Under the pieces are notes generated by a model. It was not told the origin of the DNA. It did no database searches and saw only the letters and a program-made list of their open reading frames with translations. A DNA stretch of 51,902 bases from Lachnospiraceae bacterium (GTDB lineage: Bacteria; Bacillota; Clostridia; Lachnospirales; Lachnospiraceae): positions 1 to 51,902 of the forward strand of contig JAFYYS010000017.1 of assembly GCA_017546025.1 (NCBI GenBank), written 5' to 3'. Positions 2,454-31,324 of the stretch are shown here, piece after piece (the first letter of the stretch is position 1; each line of letters begins with the position of its first letter). The position numbers were made by a program, and so were the translations under genes.

Positions 2454-3473
2454 TTATGACAACAACTTGTTTTGCTTAAGCCATTCTTCTGCGAGCTTCG
2501 GCCAGGTTTGCACATCAGGATATACCGGGCGCTCAATCATCATCGGGCCGGGACCCGGTCCGCCTTCTCTCGGTTTTCCTTCGGGATTGCCGAAAAACTG
2601 CATCATCAGTTCGGTGCGTCTCTCATCGGAAACGCGGATGCCCTTATGGTCGCGAACTGCCTCCACGGCTTTGTTCGTCTGTTCAAACGTATACGGCTCA
2701 CCGAAATCGCCCTTCATGACGCGCTCATTATGAAGCGAAAGTCCGTGCGGGCCGTTGGGAAATGCGAAGTACGCGTAAGGTACCCCGGCTTTCCGGCAGC
2801 TTTCGGCGTAATACATGGAATTTTCCACGGGAACAAGGTCGTCCGTTACGGTCTGCCAGATGAAGCACGGCGGCATATCCTTATGCACCTGCTTCTCAAG
2901 CGAGTAGTACTCCTTCTCCTTCTCGTCCGCGTCGCGGCCGATCAGCGCCCAGATGGAATAAATGTGCGTGAACTCGCCGGATGTGATGACCGGATAACCG
3001 AGGAGCACGCCGTCCGGGCGGTTGCTGACTGCATTCAGCGTCGGATTCGGGTCCTTGATGTCTCCGTAATGGGTATGAACGGAAGCGCATACATGACCGC
3101 CTGCCGAGAATCCGATGATGGAAATCTTAGCGGGATCCATACGGAAACGGCTGTCCGTGCGGACCAGGCGGATGGCGCGGGAAAGGTCCGACATCGGCTG
3201 GTCATGAAGCGGTACCGACATCGTGATATCGGTCGTGTAGGTCAGCACGACAACGTTCATGCCGAGGTTGTAGAAGTACTCCGCAACCGGCTCGCCCTCG
3301 ACGTTACAGACCATGCAGTATCCGCCGCCGGGCACGACAATCATGCCGGGACGAACCTGCTCATCGTCATGCAGATACGTATAGACATTCGGGGCAAAGC
3401 CGTAGGCTGCCTCGTAGTTATACTCTCCGTCTTTCCAGATATCTTCCCGGAAGGATACGGCGGTTTCAATCAT
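2454..3473 (-). CDS. Alpha/beta-hydrolase, probable carbohydrate or acetyl esterase
   Basis: 339 residues of the alpha/beta-hydrolase fold. VVPGGGY (about 46-52) is the oxyanion-hole loop and GFSAGGH (121-127) the nucleophile elbow with Ser123. Asp211 or Asp212 in TVTDDLVP and His243 in NGPHG complete the triad. Family members remove acetyl groups from xylan, other glycans or small molecules. There is no signal peptide, so it acts in the cytoplasm. It is the last gene of the operon and its start overlaps the stop of the GT2 gene by 4 bp (ATGA), so translation is probably coupled. A polysaccharide or glycolipid substrate is an inference from that pairing. Confidence 0.8.
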   Translation of the reverse strand: MIETAVSFREDIWKDGEYNYEAAYGFAPNVYTYLHDDEQVRPGMIVVPGGGYCMVCNVEGEPVAEYFYNLGMNVVVLTYTTDITMSVPLHDQPMSDLSRAIRLVRTDSRFRMDPAKISIIGFSAGGHVCASVHTHYGDIKDPNPTLNAVSNRPDGVLLGYPVITSGEFTHIYSIWALIGRDADEKEKEYYSLEKQVHKDMPPCFIWQTVTDDLVPVENSMYYAESCRKAGVPYAYFAFPNGPHGLSLHNERVMKGDFGEPYTFEQTNKAVEAVRDHKGIRVSDERRTELMMQFFGNPEGKPREGGPGPGPMMIERPVYPDVQTWPKLAEEWLKQNKLLS

Positions 3474-4210
3474 ACCGCAGCCCCCTTTCCGGCCTTGCGG
3501 TCCTTCTTCATATCCTTCTTGAAGCGGCGGAAATCACCGAGTGCCTTCCAGCCGATCTTGAAGATCTTGCGGAAGTTCACGGAGTTCTTGCCTGCCGTAC
3601 GCGGCTTGAAGGAAATCGGGCGGAACGCCTGCTTCTCTTTATAGTATGCGTAGTAGGTCGTCATCATGATGTTCGGAAGATTGTAATCCTCCTGCATCTT
3701 GTAAAGGTACTTCTTCACGACATCGCACTTCATCAGACGGAACGGTGCGTTGGCATCCGGCACCTTTACGCCGAAGTACAGACGAAGCAGAAGGCATACA
3801 ACCTTTTCAACAAAGGCACGGCCCTTGCCGTCTCCGCGGACCGTACGGTTTCCGAAGATTCCGTCGTACTCGGTACGCATCTGCCAGAAGGCGTCAAACT
3901 CGTCGGGATTGGTCTGTCCGTCGGAGTCGGTCTGGAATACATAATCGATGCCTCTTTTGATGGCAAGGTCATACAAAGCGATGACCTTCGGTCCGTGATA
4001 ACGGTTCGTATCCGGCAGGATCTCAAGCTGCGGGAATTCCTTCTGCAGGTTCTCCAGCACCTCGTGGGTACGGTCGCTGCTGCCGCTGTCTGCGATGACA
4101 AGGCGGGACTCCTCGGATTTGCCGGCGAGGACGGGATACCACTGCCGTACCACGCCTTCGATGTTGGCCTCTTCGTTATAGGCCGGCATTACGATATATA
4201 AAGAATCCAT
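3470..4210 (-). CDS. Family 2 glycosyltransferase
   Basis: 246 residues with a GT-A fold. VMPAYNEEANI (7-17) opens the nucleotide-sugar binding domain. DSGSSDRT (41-48) and the metal-binding DSD (95-97, in QTDSDGQTN) are the diagnostic motifs. It should transfer a sugar from a nucleotide sugar or lipid-linked donor, resembling dolichyl-phosphate mannosyltransferase-type enzymes. There are no clear membrane helices; the basic C-terminus (KKDMKKDRKAGKG) may contact the membrane. GGAGG lies 8 bases before the ATG. It sits 3 bp after TelA and overlaps the esterase. Its pairing with a TelA/CobS-like module is unusual. Acceptor unknown. Confidence 0.85.
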   Translation of the reverse strand: MDSLYIVMPAYNEEANIEGVVRQWYPVLAGKSEESRLVIADSGSSDRTHEVLENLQKEFPQLEILPDTNRYHGPKVIALYDLAIKRGIDYVFQTDSDGQTNPDEFDAFWQMRTEYDGIFGNRTVRGDGKGRAFVEKVVCLLLRLYFGVKVPDANAPFRLMKCDVVKKYLYKMQEDYNLPNIMMTTYYAYYKEKQAFRPISFKPRTAGKNSVNFRKIFKIGWKALGDFRRFKKDMKKDRKAGKGAAV

Positions 4211-12528: not shown

Positions 12529-13431
12529 CTATTTGCACTCCTTCAGCTTCGCGCCGTCAAGCCAGCTGTACTGGCGGTTGGTCACCTGCATCGAATAACC
12601 CGAAGGCGAATGCACATAGGCGTCTGCGACGGCCATCAGCCCCATGATCAGCCCCCCAAGCGTGATGTTGACGCCGTAAGCCTCGCTGTTCTTTCCGTTT
12701 CCGTCGACGATGCTGACCTCACGCACCGGACTGTCCGTTCCGAACCCGATCTTTCCGAGATAGCTGAGCGCCTTTTCAATCTTCGCTTTGTCAATGCCGG
12801 TTGCCTTGGCGACCGAATCCGGTCCGGCAAATTCGAAGCTCTTTAATGAGTACATATACTCAATGATCCGCATGTTATCGCTGTCCGAAAGGAACCCGAA
12901 CAGCTCGCGAACCTCCGCCGTGTCGGCGAACCAGCTCTCGTAACCCTTCGCGCCTTCCGGCTGTCTTAAGAAGAGGTAGAAGTCTCTTCCCTGATCAAGC
13001 CCCATAAACGAATAGCACGTGTCAAATGCGATGCAGCTTGCCTGTCTCGGCGCATCCTTATCAAGCCGCGGACGCTCCCAGTACTCGGATACATTCTTCC
13101 AGCTTGCAATCTGGAACGCCCAAAGGCTTCGGTGAAGCTTCTCCGTAAAAGCTTTCTCCCCCTCGTTGTATGACTGCACCTCAGCCCAAATCTTTGCGCA
13201 CTCATTGACAATCTGCTGTTCAAGCTCGGGCCGTCTGCCCTCGCGTCCGTACAGATAATCAATGGAAACGCCGAAATAATCCGCAATCCTCGGCAGCAGG
13301 TCGCCGTCCGGATAACTTCCGTTCTCCCATTTGGATACCGCCTGCGCGCTTACCCCCAGGTGCGACGCGAGCTGTTCCTGCGTAATCTTCGCTTCCTTCC
13401 GAAGCGTCTGTAAAGATTCAGCAAAACCCAT
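12529..13431 (-). CDS. XRE-family transcriptional regulator with large C-terminal domain
   Basis: 300 residues from the ATG at 13431, chosen because AAAGGGGG lies 8 bases upstream; a longer frame is open to 13545 but has no such site. Residues 1-65 are a clear XRE helix-turn-helix (QEQLASHLGVSAQAVSKWEN). The C-terminal 230 residues are not recognised, but include a helix-turn-helix-like stretch (DSVAKATGIDKAKIEKALSYLGKIGF), so there may be a second DNA- or partner-binding domain. Two direct repeats over its promoter (13510-13554) are candidate autoregulatory sites. Its upstream side faces the large repeat region. Confidence 0.85.
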   Translation of the reverse strand: MGFAESLQTLRKEAKITQEQLASHLGVSAQAVSKWENGSYPDGDLLPRIADYFGVSIDYLYGREGRRPELEQQIVNECAKIWAEVQSYNEGEKAFTEKLHRSLWAFQIASWKNVSEYWERPRLDKDAPRQASCIAFDTCYSFMGLDQGRDFYLFLRQPEGAKGYESWFADTAEVRELFGFLSDSDNMRIIEYMYSLKSFEFAGPDSVAKATGIDKAKIEKALSYLGKIGFGTDSPVREVSIVDGNGKNSEAYGVNITLGGLIMGLMAVADAYVHSPSGYSMQVTNRQYSWLDGAKLKECK

Positions 13432-13554: not shown

Positions 13555-13698
13555 TAGTTCATAGTAGAAAAATCCCCCAAAATCCCACCGTGAGTTGTAT
13601 GAATTCAACGTTCAGGATAAAAAAATTAATGCACCCAACCTGACAGCCAGACAGGATCGTCTTCGTTCCGGATTAGTTACTCCTTTTTCAGATCAAAT

Positions 13699-13884
13699 AC
13701 TTGCTTTAGGTTTAGGTACTTGCTTGGGATTAGGTGCTTGCTTGGGAATCAGGTACTTGCTTGGGATCAGGTGCTTGCTTGGGATCAGGTGCTTGCTTGG
13801 GATTAGGGTATTTGCTTGGGAATCAGGTACTTGCTTGGGATTAGGGTATTTGCTTGGGAATCAGGTGCTTGCTTGGGATCAGGT
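13699..13884. repeat. 18/19-bp minisatellite, about 10 units
   Basis: Ten head-to-tail units with consensus RCTTGCTTGGGAWTMAGGT, of 18 or 19 bases. Units 6-7 and 8-9 form a repeated 38-bp dimer, suggesting duplication by slippage. Unit lengths are not a multiple of three as a set, so no reading frame is kept; the plus-strand ORF across it is a by-product. Confidence 0.9.
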
Positions 13885-13898
13885 GCTCTTCCCAAATC

Positions 13899-14307
13899 GT
13901 ACGGACTGAAGCTCGCTTTTGCCTTTTCAGTCCGTACCGCTTTTACTTGAAAAAGCTGCTTTTTATGAAACAGTACGGACTGAAAGATGATTTCATCAAT
14001 TCAGTCCGTACCACTTTCACTTTGGAATGTTGGTTTTAGCGAAATAGTACGGACTGTTACTTAAAAAGATCTGTTTAGTCCGTACTATTCAAGCTCGCAG
14101 GAAAACCGACCGCTGAAGAATTACGGACCAAACAAATAAAACAAGCTTCTAGTCCGTACTCTTTTCAAAAAACCGCCGGCCTGTGGCGTCAGATGTACGG
14201 ACTTGAGTGCGAAAAGAAGCTTCCGGTCCGTACTTTTCCCGAAAAACCGTCCCCCCGAGGCGTCAGATGTACGGACTTGAGTGCGAAAAGAAGCTTCCAG
14301 TCCGTAC
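13899..14307. repeat. Six inverted-repeat elements on an exact 74-bp period
   Basis: Elements start at 13899, 13973, 14047, 14121, 14195 and 14269, each exactly 39 bp: arm GTACGGACT, 21 bases, arm AGTCCGTAC. They are separated by exactly 35 bases. In elements 1 and 2 the arms extend to 12 bp (adds GAA/TTC). Element 4 has TTACGGACC as left arm; element 5 has GGTCCGTAC as right arm. The 21-base interiors are identical in 5 and 6 and diverged elsewhere; the 35-base spacers also diverge, though the last three share a GAAAAACCG-like stretch. Spacing has stayed fixed without indels while sequence changed. No gene is present. Confidence 0.92.
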
Positions 14308-14317
14308 TTTTTCGGAA

Positions 14318-14385
14318 AACCATAACCTGCCCGAAACCATAACCTGCCCGAAACCATATCCTGCCCGAAACCATATCCTGCCCGA
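14318..14385. repeat. 17-bp tandem repeat, 4 copies
   Basis: Four units of AACCATAWCCTGCCCGA at 14318, 14335, 14352 and 14369. Units 1-2 carry ATAA and units 3-4 ATAT. It begins within the spacer that follows the sixth 74-bp element, whose TTTTTCGGAAAACC sequence resembles the other spacers. Confidence 0.9.
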
Positions 14386-14397
14386 GGCAGCCCGCAT

Positions 14398-14431
14398 AAA
14401 AAAACCAGGCGGGCTGTCGATCAGCCCGCCT
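14398..14431 (-). terminator. Terminator of the PPi-phosphofructokinase gene
   Basis: A perfect 10-bp stem AGGCGGGCTG/CAGCCCGCCT (14407-14431) followed on the minus strand by GG and seven T. It lies about 30 bp after the stop codon at 14462. Confidence 0.9.
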
Positions 14432-14461: not shown

Positions 14462-16120
14462 TCAGCCCTTTTCGAGAGCAAGGGTTCTGGTGGTGAGGTC
14501 GCATACCTCAGCCGGTCCGTAGTACTGAATAGCACCGGGGTAGGTGAAGCTGGTCTTAACAGCCCACTCGTCACGATGTGCTTCGAAGTACTTGAACGGC
14601 TTGCCGTCAAGCTCAACCAAAGCCTTACGGATAACAGGCTTGTCCTCGCCGTTACGACGCTCGATGTTCATCATCTTCGTAATCGGCATGCCGCCTGCGT
14701 TCCACTCCTCAGCGGGCTTGGACAGGTTGGAAACCTTCGAAAGGTAACCGGTGTAGCCGTACTGAATCAGCATGAAAGCGTTGTAGCCGAGGGAGTAGCA
14801 GTAGTCAGCGTCGAAGTTCGACGGGAAAGCGCAACGGCCTTCGTAACCGAAGAAGTGATGCTGCTGACCGAACTTACCCTTGTAGGTGCCGGCTTTCTTT
14901 CTCTTTGCAAGCTCGTTCTTAACCATCTCGGAGAAGAGCTTCTCGGACTCGATGAGGGAAACCTGAACGTTACCGTGAGGATCTCTCTCGAGGAAGAGCT
15001 GCTGCTGAATGCCCTGCGGAAGGATGTCAAATACCTTGAAGGACTCAGCGGTAAGACCGCTCTTGATGAATGCATACTTAGCAGCCCAATCCGGAAGAGC
15101 GTTGAACTCATCGGTCTTGCTGCCGGCAAGGAGCTCGTTGATCTCCTTGATCAGCGTGGAGAACTCGGGAACGAACTCAACGATACCCTCGGGGATGATT
15201 GCAACACCGAAGTTCTCGCCGTTGTTGCCACGGGTCTCAACAGCGTCTGCGATATAGTTGGTAATCTGCGCAAGAGACATCTTCTTAGCGGCAACTTCCT
15301 CACCGATGAGGCAGATGTTGGGCTGGGTCTCAAGTGCGCACTCAAGTGCAACATGGGAAGCGGAACGACCCATAACCTTGATGAAATGCCAGTACTTCTT
15401 AGCGGAGTTGGCATCACGCTCAATGTTACCGATCAGCTCGCTGTAGGTCTTCGTTGCGGTATCGAAACCGAAGGAAGCCTCAATGTCCTCGTTCTTAAGG
15501 TCGCCGTCGATGGTCTTCGGGCATCCGATAACCTGTACGCCGGTGTTCTTAGCTGCCATGTACTCAGCGAGTACGGCTGCGTTCGTGTTGGAATCGTCAC
15601 CGCCGATGATTACGATGGCGGTAAGACCGTGCTTCTTGGCAACTTCCTCAACAACAGCGAACTGCTCCTTGGTCTCGAGCTTCGTACGGCCGGAACCGAT
15701 GATATCGAAACCGCCGGTGTTACGGTACTGGTTGATGAAATCGTCAGTAAACTCAATGTAGGAATCCTCAAGAAGACCGCTCGGGCCGCCCTTGAAGCCA
15801 AGCAGAACGTTGTTCTTATCGGTTGCCTTGAGGGCATCGTAAAGACCGCAAACAACGTTGTGTCCGCCGGGTGCCTGTCCGCCGGAAAGGATAACGCCGA
15901 CAACCTGCTTCTTCGCCTTAGACGTATTAGCGCCCTTAACGAACGTGATTTCCTTCTTGCCGTAGGTGTTCGGGAACAAAGCCTTGATCTTGTCCTGATC
16001 CGCTACGCTCTGTGTTGCTTCGCCTTCCTTAACGCAGATGTCTGCGATGCCGTTTCTGAGCATTCCCGGAAGCTTCGGCTGATACTCGTATCTTGCTTTT
16101 TGCAGAGGTGAAAGATTCAT
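14462..16120 (-). CDS. pfp: Pyrophosphate-dependent 6-phosphofructokinase, long form
   Basis: 552 residues, the length of the long (plant beta/spirochaete-like) PPi-PFK clade. It interconverts fructose 6-phosphate + PPi and fructose 1,6-bisphosphate + Pi in glycolysis. GGQAPGGHN (80-88) lies in the substrate loop, GGDDSN (173-178) is the signature in which Asp blocks ATP and favours PPi, and PKTIDGD (201-207) carries the catalytic Asp. The ATG at 16120 follows AAGGAG; the frame is open 41 codons further up, but that region holds the promoter. It is monocistronic with a strong terminator. Use of PPi-PFK as main glycolytic enzyme is common in Lachnospiraceae. Confidence 0.95.
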
Positions 16121-16168
16121 AAAACCATACTCCTTTATATAAATATAATATCTTTCATTTCGGACAAT

Positions 16169-16197
16169 ATAGTAAAACATTTTATGGAAAATGTAAA
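16169..16197 (-). promoter_or_regulatory. Promoter of pfp with palindrome in the spacer
   Basis: The -35 TTTACA (16192-16197) and -10 TACTAT (16169-16174) are 17 bp apart on the minus strand. The spacer holds the inverted repeat ACATTTT-4-AAAATGT (16177-16194), a possible operator. Confidence 0.5.
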
Positions 16198-16261
16198 GAC
16201 CGTTATTTGTCGTTTTCGAGCGAATCGGGATGGCATTTTCCACTGTATCGAAAGAAGCCGG

Positions 16262-18053: not shown

Positions 18054-18126
18054 TGGAGCATAGGGGACTTGAACCCCTGACCCCAACACTGCCAGTGTTG
18101 TGCGCTCCCAACTGCGCTAATGCCCC
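18054..18126 (-). tRNA. tRNA-Ala (anticodon GGC)
   Basis: 73 bases fold as a cloverleaf: acceptor GGGGCAT/ATGCTCC with the G3-U70 pair that identifies alanine tRNAs, and anticodon stem CAACA/TGTTG with loop CTGGCAG giving anticodon GGC, which reads GCC and GCU. The T arm contains GGTTCAAGTCC. The discriminator is A and CCA is not encoded. A promoter lies upstream at about 18181-18208 and a terminator follows. Confidence 0.95.
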
Positions 18127-30505: not shown

Positions 30506-31324
30506 CTATTTCAACAGCCCTCTGATCTTCGCAATCGTGCTGTTCATCTTGTCACAGTCGATTGCGCCGGTCGCCTTGTCGAACGACGTCGATTCAATCG
30601 TGAAATCGCCCTGATAACCGGTCTCTTTGATGAAGTCAAAAAGCCGCTCGAAATCAATCTGTCCGTCGCCCGCATGAAGCGTCTTCAGGCACGACCAGTC
30701 CTTCACCGCGCCCTTATAATCGTTGATGTGCATATGAACGACATGGTCGAACACATAGCGGTTCTCCGGCAGGTAGAGCTCCTGCAACTGCCCGTGGAAC
30801 TCCGCCATCTTCGTATCGAAGGTAAATGCGACGTCCGAAAAGAGCGCAATCAGTTCCTTCAAATGCGTCATCGGGTCGGCAACGTTACAGACGACATTCT
30901 CCACGGTGAGGAGCAGTCCGTAGCGTTCCGCTGTCTTGCGGAGCACGCGGTACATCTCGACATTGTGCGGAAAATCCTTATCCGAATCCATGCCGCTCCA
31001 AAGGTGGATGACAAGCTTTTCGGAGCCGATCCGCTTCGCGAGGTCGCAGTTAATTTCAAACATCTTACAGGCAAGCTCGGTATCGCCGGGCTCGTTGCGG
31101 CTCACAAGGTCGCCGACACCCTTCTCGATATGAAACACCGGGAAAGGCTTCTTCAGGCTGTTAAGGAGCTCCGCGATCTCATCGATCTGGTCGTATTTGT
31201 CATCGTAAAGCATGAACTCAAAGCCGTCGCAATCGATGTTGTCGACGCACTCTTTGAGCAAATGGTAGTTTCTTCCGTTCGGGCGCCCGATCAGTGCGCC
31301 GGTGGAGCATAAAATTCTGTTCAT
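30506..31324 (-). CDS. Sugar phosphate isomerase/epimerase-like TIM-barrel protein
   Basis: 272 residues of the AP endonuclease 2/xylose isomerase-like barrel. The metal-site pattern is present: FPVFHIEKG, LVIHLWSG, LLTVENVV, VAFTFDTKMAEFHG, VVHMHINDYKG, LHAGDGQIDFERL and GDFTIESTS. Family members isomerise or epimerise sugars or inositols. The substrate is unknown. It is 2 bp from the GNAT gene and lies in a run of genes starting at the promoter near 32206-32233. Confidence 0.85.
   Translation of the reverse strand: MNRILCSTGALIGRPNGRNYHLLKECVDNIDCDGFEFMLYDDKYDQIDEIAELLNSLKKPFPVFHIEKGVGDLVSRNEPGDTELACKMFEINCDLAKRIGSEKLVIHLWSGMDSDKDFPHNVEMYRVLRKTAERYGLLLTVENVVCNVADPMTHLKELIALFSDVAFTFDTKMAEFHGQLQELYLPENRYVFDHVVHMHINDYKGAVKDWSCLKTLHAGDGQIDFERLFDFIKETGYQGDFTIESTSFDKATGAIDCDKMNSTIAKIRGLLK

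Follow-up and report, generated by a model that had tools for sequence, protein, structure and literature searches.

A phased inverted-repeat array in a Lachnospiraceae genome is probably an orphan of a system pairing nuclease-like proteins with half-site arrays

Introduction

What holds six short inverted repeats at an exactly constant distance in an interval with no likely gene? The question is raised by positions 13899 to 14307 of contig JAFYYS010000017.1 from a Lachnospiraceae bacterium, of which the 51,902 bp analysed here are called the window. An earlier note, written from the letters of this DNA, had described the array and proposed that it was a multi-protein binding array, a chromosome-organising site or a run of RNA hairpins. 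We found that arrays of the same geometry, carrying different arms, accompany a family of nuclease-like genes, and that their elements are spaced close to whole helical turns. The window array is probably an orphan of a two-part system, in which a nuclease-like protein would be paired with cognate phased arrays of half-sites on bent double-stranded DNA.

Results

We re-derived the coordinates of the array and they agree in full with the six 39-bp inverted repeats, 21-bp interiors, 35-bp gaps and exact 74-bp period described earlier. The elements start at 13899, 13973, 14047, 14121, 14195 and 14269, which gives five exact 74-bp steps. We also agree that the interval holds no likely gene, since the overlapping open reading frames (ORFs) called mechanically there were taken as spurious by judgement. 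The elements and the two groups of gaps are as follows.

13899..13937, unstranded, element 1, GTACGGACT-N21-AGTCCGTAC
13973..14011, unstranded, element 2
14047..14085, unstranded, element 3, close to the centre of the mirrored array
14121..14159, unstranded, element 4, left arm TTACGGACC
14195..14233, unstranded, element 5, right arm GGTCCGTAC, interior the same as in element 6
14269..14307, unstranded, element 6, interior the same as in element 5
13938..14046, + strand, gaps 1 and 2, flanking element 2, mutual forward identity 0.68
14160..14268, - strand, gaps 4 and 5, flanking element 5, mutual identity 0.76

The arms had been called conserved. This holds for a 7-bp core, TACGGAC/GTCCGTA, which is unbroken in all six elements, but the left arm of element 4 and the right arm of element 5 deviate. 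The pattern TACGGAC-N23-GTCCGTA, allowing 2 mismatches at most, occurs 7 times in the window where 0.12 occurrences were expected, and none of 100 dinucleotide shuffles reached 7. The seventh match is an isolated site at 30886 with 1 mismatch. An Rfam scan of the window at the gathering score gave no match in the array; its sole match was a tRNA.

The last two interiors are identical, as had been noted, and the interiors and gaps were said to have changed freely. For the gaps this is only partly so, as those within each group resemble each other. Gaps 4 and 5 match gaps 1 and 2 at 0.46-0.54 identity as reverse complement and at 0.16-0.30 in the forward direction. The window array thus consists of two half-arrays facing opposite ways. 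Weaker mirror signs of a like kind were seen in 4 of the 5 orphan arrays of genome G015.

A scan of the same genome revealed two further arrays with the window arms, both on contig C13. Their steps are all 74 bp except for one of 62.

29488-29746 of C13, array of 4 elements, same arms
155936-156256 of C13, array of 5 elements, same arms

The first of these ends 297 bp ahead of the start of a gene for a 272-aa protein (L025:8045-8863), and on its other side lies what we take to be a purD-type gene. A structure model suggests that the C-terminal half of the 272-aa protein resembles the PD-(D/E)XK fold of the homing-endonuclease, TnsA and Vsr type. The modelled core combines that fold with conserved acidic residues, by which the superfamily is recognised, and the nuclease motifs are invariant in 42 family members. 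These data support a PD-(D/E)XK-like C-terminal fold. The likeness to I-Bth0305I-type homing endonucleases, TnsA and Vsr is one of fold only, as the N-terminal part differs, and none of them is known to have a cognate inverted-repeat array. The C-terminal half also aligns with the PADLOC PDC-S68 models (E down to 4.3e-27), and helicases on viral contigs have the same tail, with the RSKSE, PDF and EHxG motifs in common. However, those proteins are about 1200 aa long, and at the one such locus of the family sample (L110) no array was found in the downstream flank, the side examined. Scans of family members with Pfam and NCBIfam gave no transposase match, and when the linked gene was compared with Pfam, NCBIfam and PADLOC no cas family came up.

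The genome carries 7 paralogs of the nuclease-like gene. Six of them have an array nearby, each with its own arms, as listed here.

arms TACGGAC, step 74 bp
arms GCGCATACC, step 85/86 bp
arms TTCCTAC, step 53 bp
arms TATGACT, step 52/53 bp, 9 copies, linked to the paralog on contig C25
arms TTACTAC, step 83-85 bp
arms TTGGAAC, step 53 bp

The TATGACT arms recur, with 1-2 mismatches, in an orphan array of three elements on contig C32 with steps of 53 and 53 bp.

Among 60 genomes of the same bacterial family, sampled at one per genus, 23 hold the gene family, two of these having only fragments and one a protein of 1237 aa. In the class it is present in 34 of 393 genomes, at times solely as one domain of a larger protein (in G081, G317 and G402, for example). 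In the phylum 8 of 398 genomes have it, and the two of these outside the class match the C-terminal half only. Arrays were detected as at least 3 copies of a 7-bp arm plus its inverted partner at any step of 45-115 bp. By this measure 79 of 114 gene-family loci carry an array (30 of 45 in the family-level set and 49 of 69 in the class-level set), and the positive loci span five families of the class (f1, f5, f15, f30 and f39). Only 2 of 135 control tiles were positive, one holding the window's own array and the other an array with the arms of locus L118. When the partner was reversed without being complemented, 19 of 228 segments passed as compared with 83 of 228, and 17 of those 19 contain a true array. 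Two loci gave no gene match (L020, L021), and at two with two family genes each (L209, L218) the best match alone was used. At a looser setting with 3 mismatches, a chain of at least three was found at 18 of 23 genus loci; the steps that fell outside the usual bands were one of 49 at L247, a weak case, and one of 66 at L258, from two copies. We conclude that these arrays are linked to the gene family.

Most of the gene-linked arrays lie upstream of the gene (70 of 83, against 13 downstream), with a median of 91 bp between array end and gene start. Arrays flank the gene on both sides at 4 of the 79 positive loci (L093, L102, L108, L160) and also in G005, where the steps are 73,85,86,72 and 85,85,72, and in G020; elsewhere they are mostly one-sided within the flanks examined. 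Between purD and rluB the window's genome has an array and a gene, while G017 has 5 elements there and no such gene. Upstream of rluB in G001 there is a gene with 58% identity and different arms (TGCATGC). Sharing of an arm 7-mer was compared with protein identity over pairs of proteins: it occurred in 13 of 2397 pairs below 40% identity, 3 of 195 at 40-49%, 6 of 59 at 50-69%, 0 of 2 at 70-79% and 5 of 6 at 80% or more. The cognate repeat thus changes along with the protein, and specificity shifts fast.

The earlier note had pointed out that 74 bp is about seven helical turns. Other arrays have other steps, of about 53, 63, 74, 85, 95 and 106 bp, yet 331 of 362 steps differ from a multiple of 10.5 bp by no more than 1.5 bp, where 32% would be expected. 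The modal step of each of 83 arrays lies at 51-54, 61-65, 73-75 or 82-86 bp, and none of the 362 steps lies at 55-60, 66-71, 76-80 or 87-93 bp. The 10.5-bp periodicity gave R=0.84, with an optimum period of 10.6 bp and a phase near zero. Using Tandem Repeats Finder, 93 inverted-repeat arrays gave R 0.845, whereas 46 other tandem repeats at the same loci gave R 0.317 (p about 0.01). In G015 the steps are mostly 94-95 bp, or nine turns. The spacing between elements is therefore quantised by the helical repeat.

Two further features of the spacing were seen. Loci L213 and L214 have long arrays in which units recur also at 42-44 bp, about four turns. Arrays with mixed steps are often mirror-symmetric in step order (L184, L195, L224, L229, L275 and L240), the orders being 75,85,75; 64,74,64; 74,95,74; 73,95,74; 72,86,86,73; and 73,85,86,72.

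Arms and steps are constrained where orthologous arrays can be aligned. Over 9 common elements of G005 and G020, the arms differ by 2 substitutions in 126 positions and the interiors by 35 in 214, with the same steps. L169 and L199 differ at 2/56 arm and 21/96 interior positions with zero indel columns, and the corresponding counts were obtained for L169/L171 (1/56 and 9/96), L171/L199 (3/56 and 22/96), L152/L154 (4/70 and 23/89) and L213/L214 (34/248 and 114/367). In G015, a search allowing up to 3 mismatches gave 31 elements among the matches listed, and 30 of these have zero mismatches, while the G015 arrays are only about 66-79% alike along long aligned stretches. The earlier note had held that conservation of the 74-bp spacing in other genomes would support function. 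Orthologous arrays do hold their steps, and the differing steps of other arrays are nearly always whole turns, which supports the proposal of a helically phased multi-protein binding array.

The interiors are constrained in composition. Among 93 elements of the window arm family across the genus, the A+T fraction is 0.82-0.85 at the dyad, 0.38-0.45 at +-4/+-5 and about 0.7 at +-8, and AAA or TTT lies within 5 bp of the dyad in 65 of the 93 elements where 33 were expected. In other arm families, 95 dyad profiles, which may count both dyad types of a single array, gave 0.78 at 0, 0.47-0.48 at +-5, 0.77-0.79 at +-9 and about 0.67 at +-20. Waves of A+T content like this one are characteristic of DNA that bends toward a protein. 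The statement that the rest of the element does not matter therefore needs to be narrowed: interiors do diverge between orthologs, but they keep an A+T peak at the dyad, and the gaps are related. By eye, half-sites often show TAC followed, after 4-5 variable bases, by AAA on the side of the dyad; TAC is also the most enriched arm trinucleotide (29 of 79 loci, 13.7 expected).

In the 94/95-bp arrays of L230-L235 (G015) the gaps often contain another motif, present either as TACCTGTCT or as the reverse complement AGACAGGTA, and its orientation tends to switch mid-array (both by eye).

Discussion

How might such a system work? Its first component would be a protein about 260-280 aa long, with a probable DNA-recognition part at the N-terminus and a PD-(D/E)XK-like part at the C-terminus. 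The second would be the arrays of inverted half-sites, here TACGGACT, serving as its cognate binding platform. One copy of the protein may bind each half-site, and two copies would then oppose one another over a bent dyad centred on A+T, their half-site centres separated by about 30 bp. As the distance from one dyad to the next is a whole number of turns, all copies would lie on one face of the helix and could assemble together. An array beside its own gene probably also regulates expression of that gene. The protein would be held or controlled on the array, and the arms of orphan arrays may persist because they are bound.

A number of observations weigh against this proposal. Arrays can sit far from any partner gene, as in the window and in G001 and G015, and orphan arrays have no clear position relative to promoters, their neighbours being divergent, convergent or in the same direction (15 loci, a rough ORF-based survey). 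No array was detected at 35 of the 114 family loci, including one of the 7 paralogs in the window's own genome; some of these loci are cut by contig ends and others may truly be array-free. Four rows were removed before the family-level set reached 45: L109 (internal stop), L110 (helicase) and L111 and L112 (fragments). G014, G016 and G017 have elements and no detected gene homolog, in genomes that are only 79-82% complete. As for the protein, the canonical Lys of ExK is missing, with EHxG in its place, the whole-model pTM is only 0.44 and the best Foldseek match has an E of 6.2e-3. The periodicity has a Rayleigh p of about 5e-26, which presumes independent arrays although the arrays are related. 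Inside the G005/G020 arms there are 3 indel columns, the contrast between arms and interiors is weaker in L170/L173 (11/84 and 29/147), and there is little in the arm-changed pairs L152/L155 (28/64 and 47/93), L154/L155 and L185/L186. Of two query proteins, one matched only ATPase tails in plasmid records; the other matched 3 phage-labelled records, one of them at 35% identity, 81% cover and E 1e-27.

This last relative of the protein lies at 3195-3815 of MT839528.1 (L299), an unannotated 4.2-kb phage-labelled record from human faeces. Only 2 inverted-repeat copies, 94 bp apart, follow its gene.

Several other explanations were weighed. The array could have arisen by neutral tandem duplication if an intergenic unit chanced to contain an inverted repeat. 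Many of the arrays beside genes are indeed simple tandem duplicates whose interiors are alike, and the window array itself has further short tandem repeats to its left and right. We regard neutral duplication as extremely unlikely, since the same geometry recurs with different arms at gene-family loci and hardly ever in control tiles, and since the steps are whole turns. Indels and decayed arms in relatives had been named as the signature of such a duplication, and the orthologs show the opposite, with arms and steps preserved despite diverged interiors. It is also very doubtful that a general host protein builds the arrays as chromosome-organising or centromere-like sites and that the nuclease-like gene is a passenger. 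A phased array with a bent-DNA signature, and orphan arrays that retain their arms, would suit such a site, but arms differ between paralogs of one genome and between all but the closest proteins, and therefore a single host protein is unlikely to read all arrays.

The arrays might work as single-strand hairpins, in single-stranded DNA or RNA in the manner of REPINs, with the A+T-rich dyad as the loop; we consider this improbable. All 5 elements of the G017 purD-rluB array are strongly self-complementary inside (mean z -3.8), the mean folding z in 60 other arrays is -0.80, and several G015 interiors are near-perfect palindromes by eye. However, symmetric pairing compared with permuted halves was 1.57 vs 2.18 in the window set (7 elements including the lone site), 2.33 vs 2.26 in other G000 arrays, 1.85 vs 2.12 in G001 and 2.45 vs 2.33 in G015, so that no clear excess was seen, and the mild z could arise from an A+T centre with G+C flanks alone. 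The earlier suggestion of a run of RNA hairpins is thus weakened, although clear hairpins exist in G017. Because the whole-turn rule spans the gaps, which is hard to explain without double-stranded DNA, we prefer double-stranded DNA over hairpins. The arrays might instead be operators, and the protein a transcription factor with a disused nuclease fold that regulates the gene encoding it as well as genes next to orphan arrays. This is unlikely but deserves more weight; the predominance of upstream arrays close to the gene start favours it, while the 13 downstream arrays, the invariant nuclease motifs and the lack of a clear preference of orphan arrays among types of gene pair argue against it.

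The proposed system of nuclease-like proteins and half-site arrays resembles RAYT-REP/BIME, in which a protein gene lies beside or between its cognate extragenic palindromes, protein-repeat pairs diversify and more than 100 REPs are present (PMC2817692). Shared features are a gene adjoining its own repeats, diversifying pairs, regular alternating spacing and dispersed copies (PMC2817692). It is not a member of RAYT-REP, because the protein is no HUH transposase: the fold here is PD-(D/E)XK-like and there that of an IS200/IS605-type transposase (PMC2817692). Unlike REPs as described there, the arms have no GT(A/G)G head, arrays are few per genome (3 with the window arms in G000, at least 7 in G015), and there are a whole-turn spacing and a bent-DNA signature (PMC2817692). 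The G015 element and array counts are lower bounds. REPINs likewise have two conserved inverted ends, a less conserved spacer, some tandem clusters and a cognate gene, but their account describes spacer hairpin pairing maintained by compensatory change (PMC3116915), which is not general here, the G017 array being an exception. The neisserial NIME arrays of dRS3 are also intergenic short inverted repeats with conserved arms and a variable interior; as described, a genome carries about 700 copies with a single arm sequence, which are a phage integrase target, and no whole-turn rule is mentioned for them (PMC3898611).

A CRISPR array was ruled out, as the repeats are inverted half-sites, interiors within an array are often related and the linked gene has no cas match.

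We found no description of a nuclease-array system in open-licence papers, and judging from that literature it would be a new kind of system. Its organisation would be RAYT-REP/BIME-like on an unrelated fold, with one diverged protein per repeat family and both gene-side and dispersed repeats. On balance we lean towards a new nuclease-repeat class, in which fast-diversifying PD-(D/E)XK-like proteins would each assemble on their own bent phased array, with several orthogonal pairs per genome, and would keep dispersed arrays under selection. Such a class would be an equivalent of RAYT-REP on a protein other than an HUH transposase, and might serve as a DNA depot to restrain or license the nuclease. 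An uncharacterised nuclease-like family is tied to a precise DNA architecture that can be recognised in the bare sequence. With several orthogonal pairs of protein and array per genome, there is a natural set for learning a DNA-recognition code, and the whole-turn spacing makes same-face assembly on DNA directly testable. If the REP-like interpretation is true, a repeat-keeping life style evolved on two unrelated nuclease folds.

Flanks of the window array

The features beside the window array are as follows.

12529..13431, - strand, presumably an XRE-type regulator gene (named from its sequence), left of the array, a candidate member of the system
14462..16243, - strand, large ORF ending at 14462 beside the array, presumably PFP, a phosphofructokinase-type gene (likewise named from its sequence), flank only
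14398..14431, - strand, terminator-like hairpin and T-run behind the 14462-16243 ORF, read by eye from the letters

The product of the XRE-type gene is 45% identical to that of an XRE-type gene adjoining the array and nuclease locus of G005. Because of this neighbour, the window array may be such a locus whose gene was lost.

Other repeats adjoin the array. About 10 copies of an 18-19-bp direct repeat (TACTTGCTTGGGATCAGG-like) lie immediately to its left at 13698-13884, and 4 copies of a 17-bp direct repeat, AAACCATAACCTGCCCG, immediately to its right at 14317-14385. Short degenerate repeats adjoin the L024 and L240 arrays too (by eye). Elsewhere in the window there are a tRNA-Ala gene with anticodon GGC at 18054-18126 on the - strand, and a 59-60-bp direct repeat in 3 copies at 2-185, whose period breaks the helical rule.
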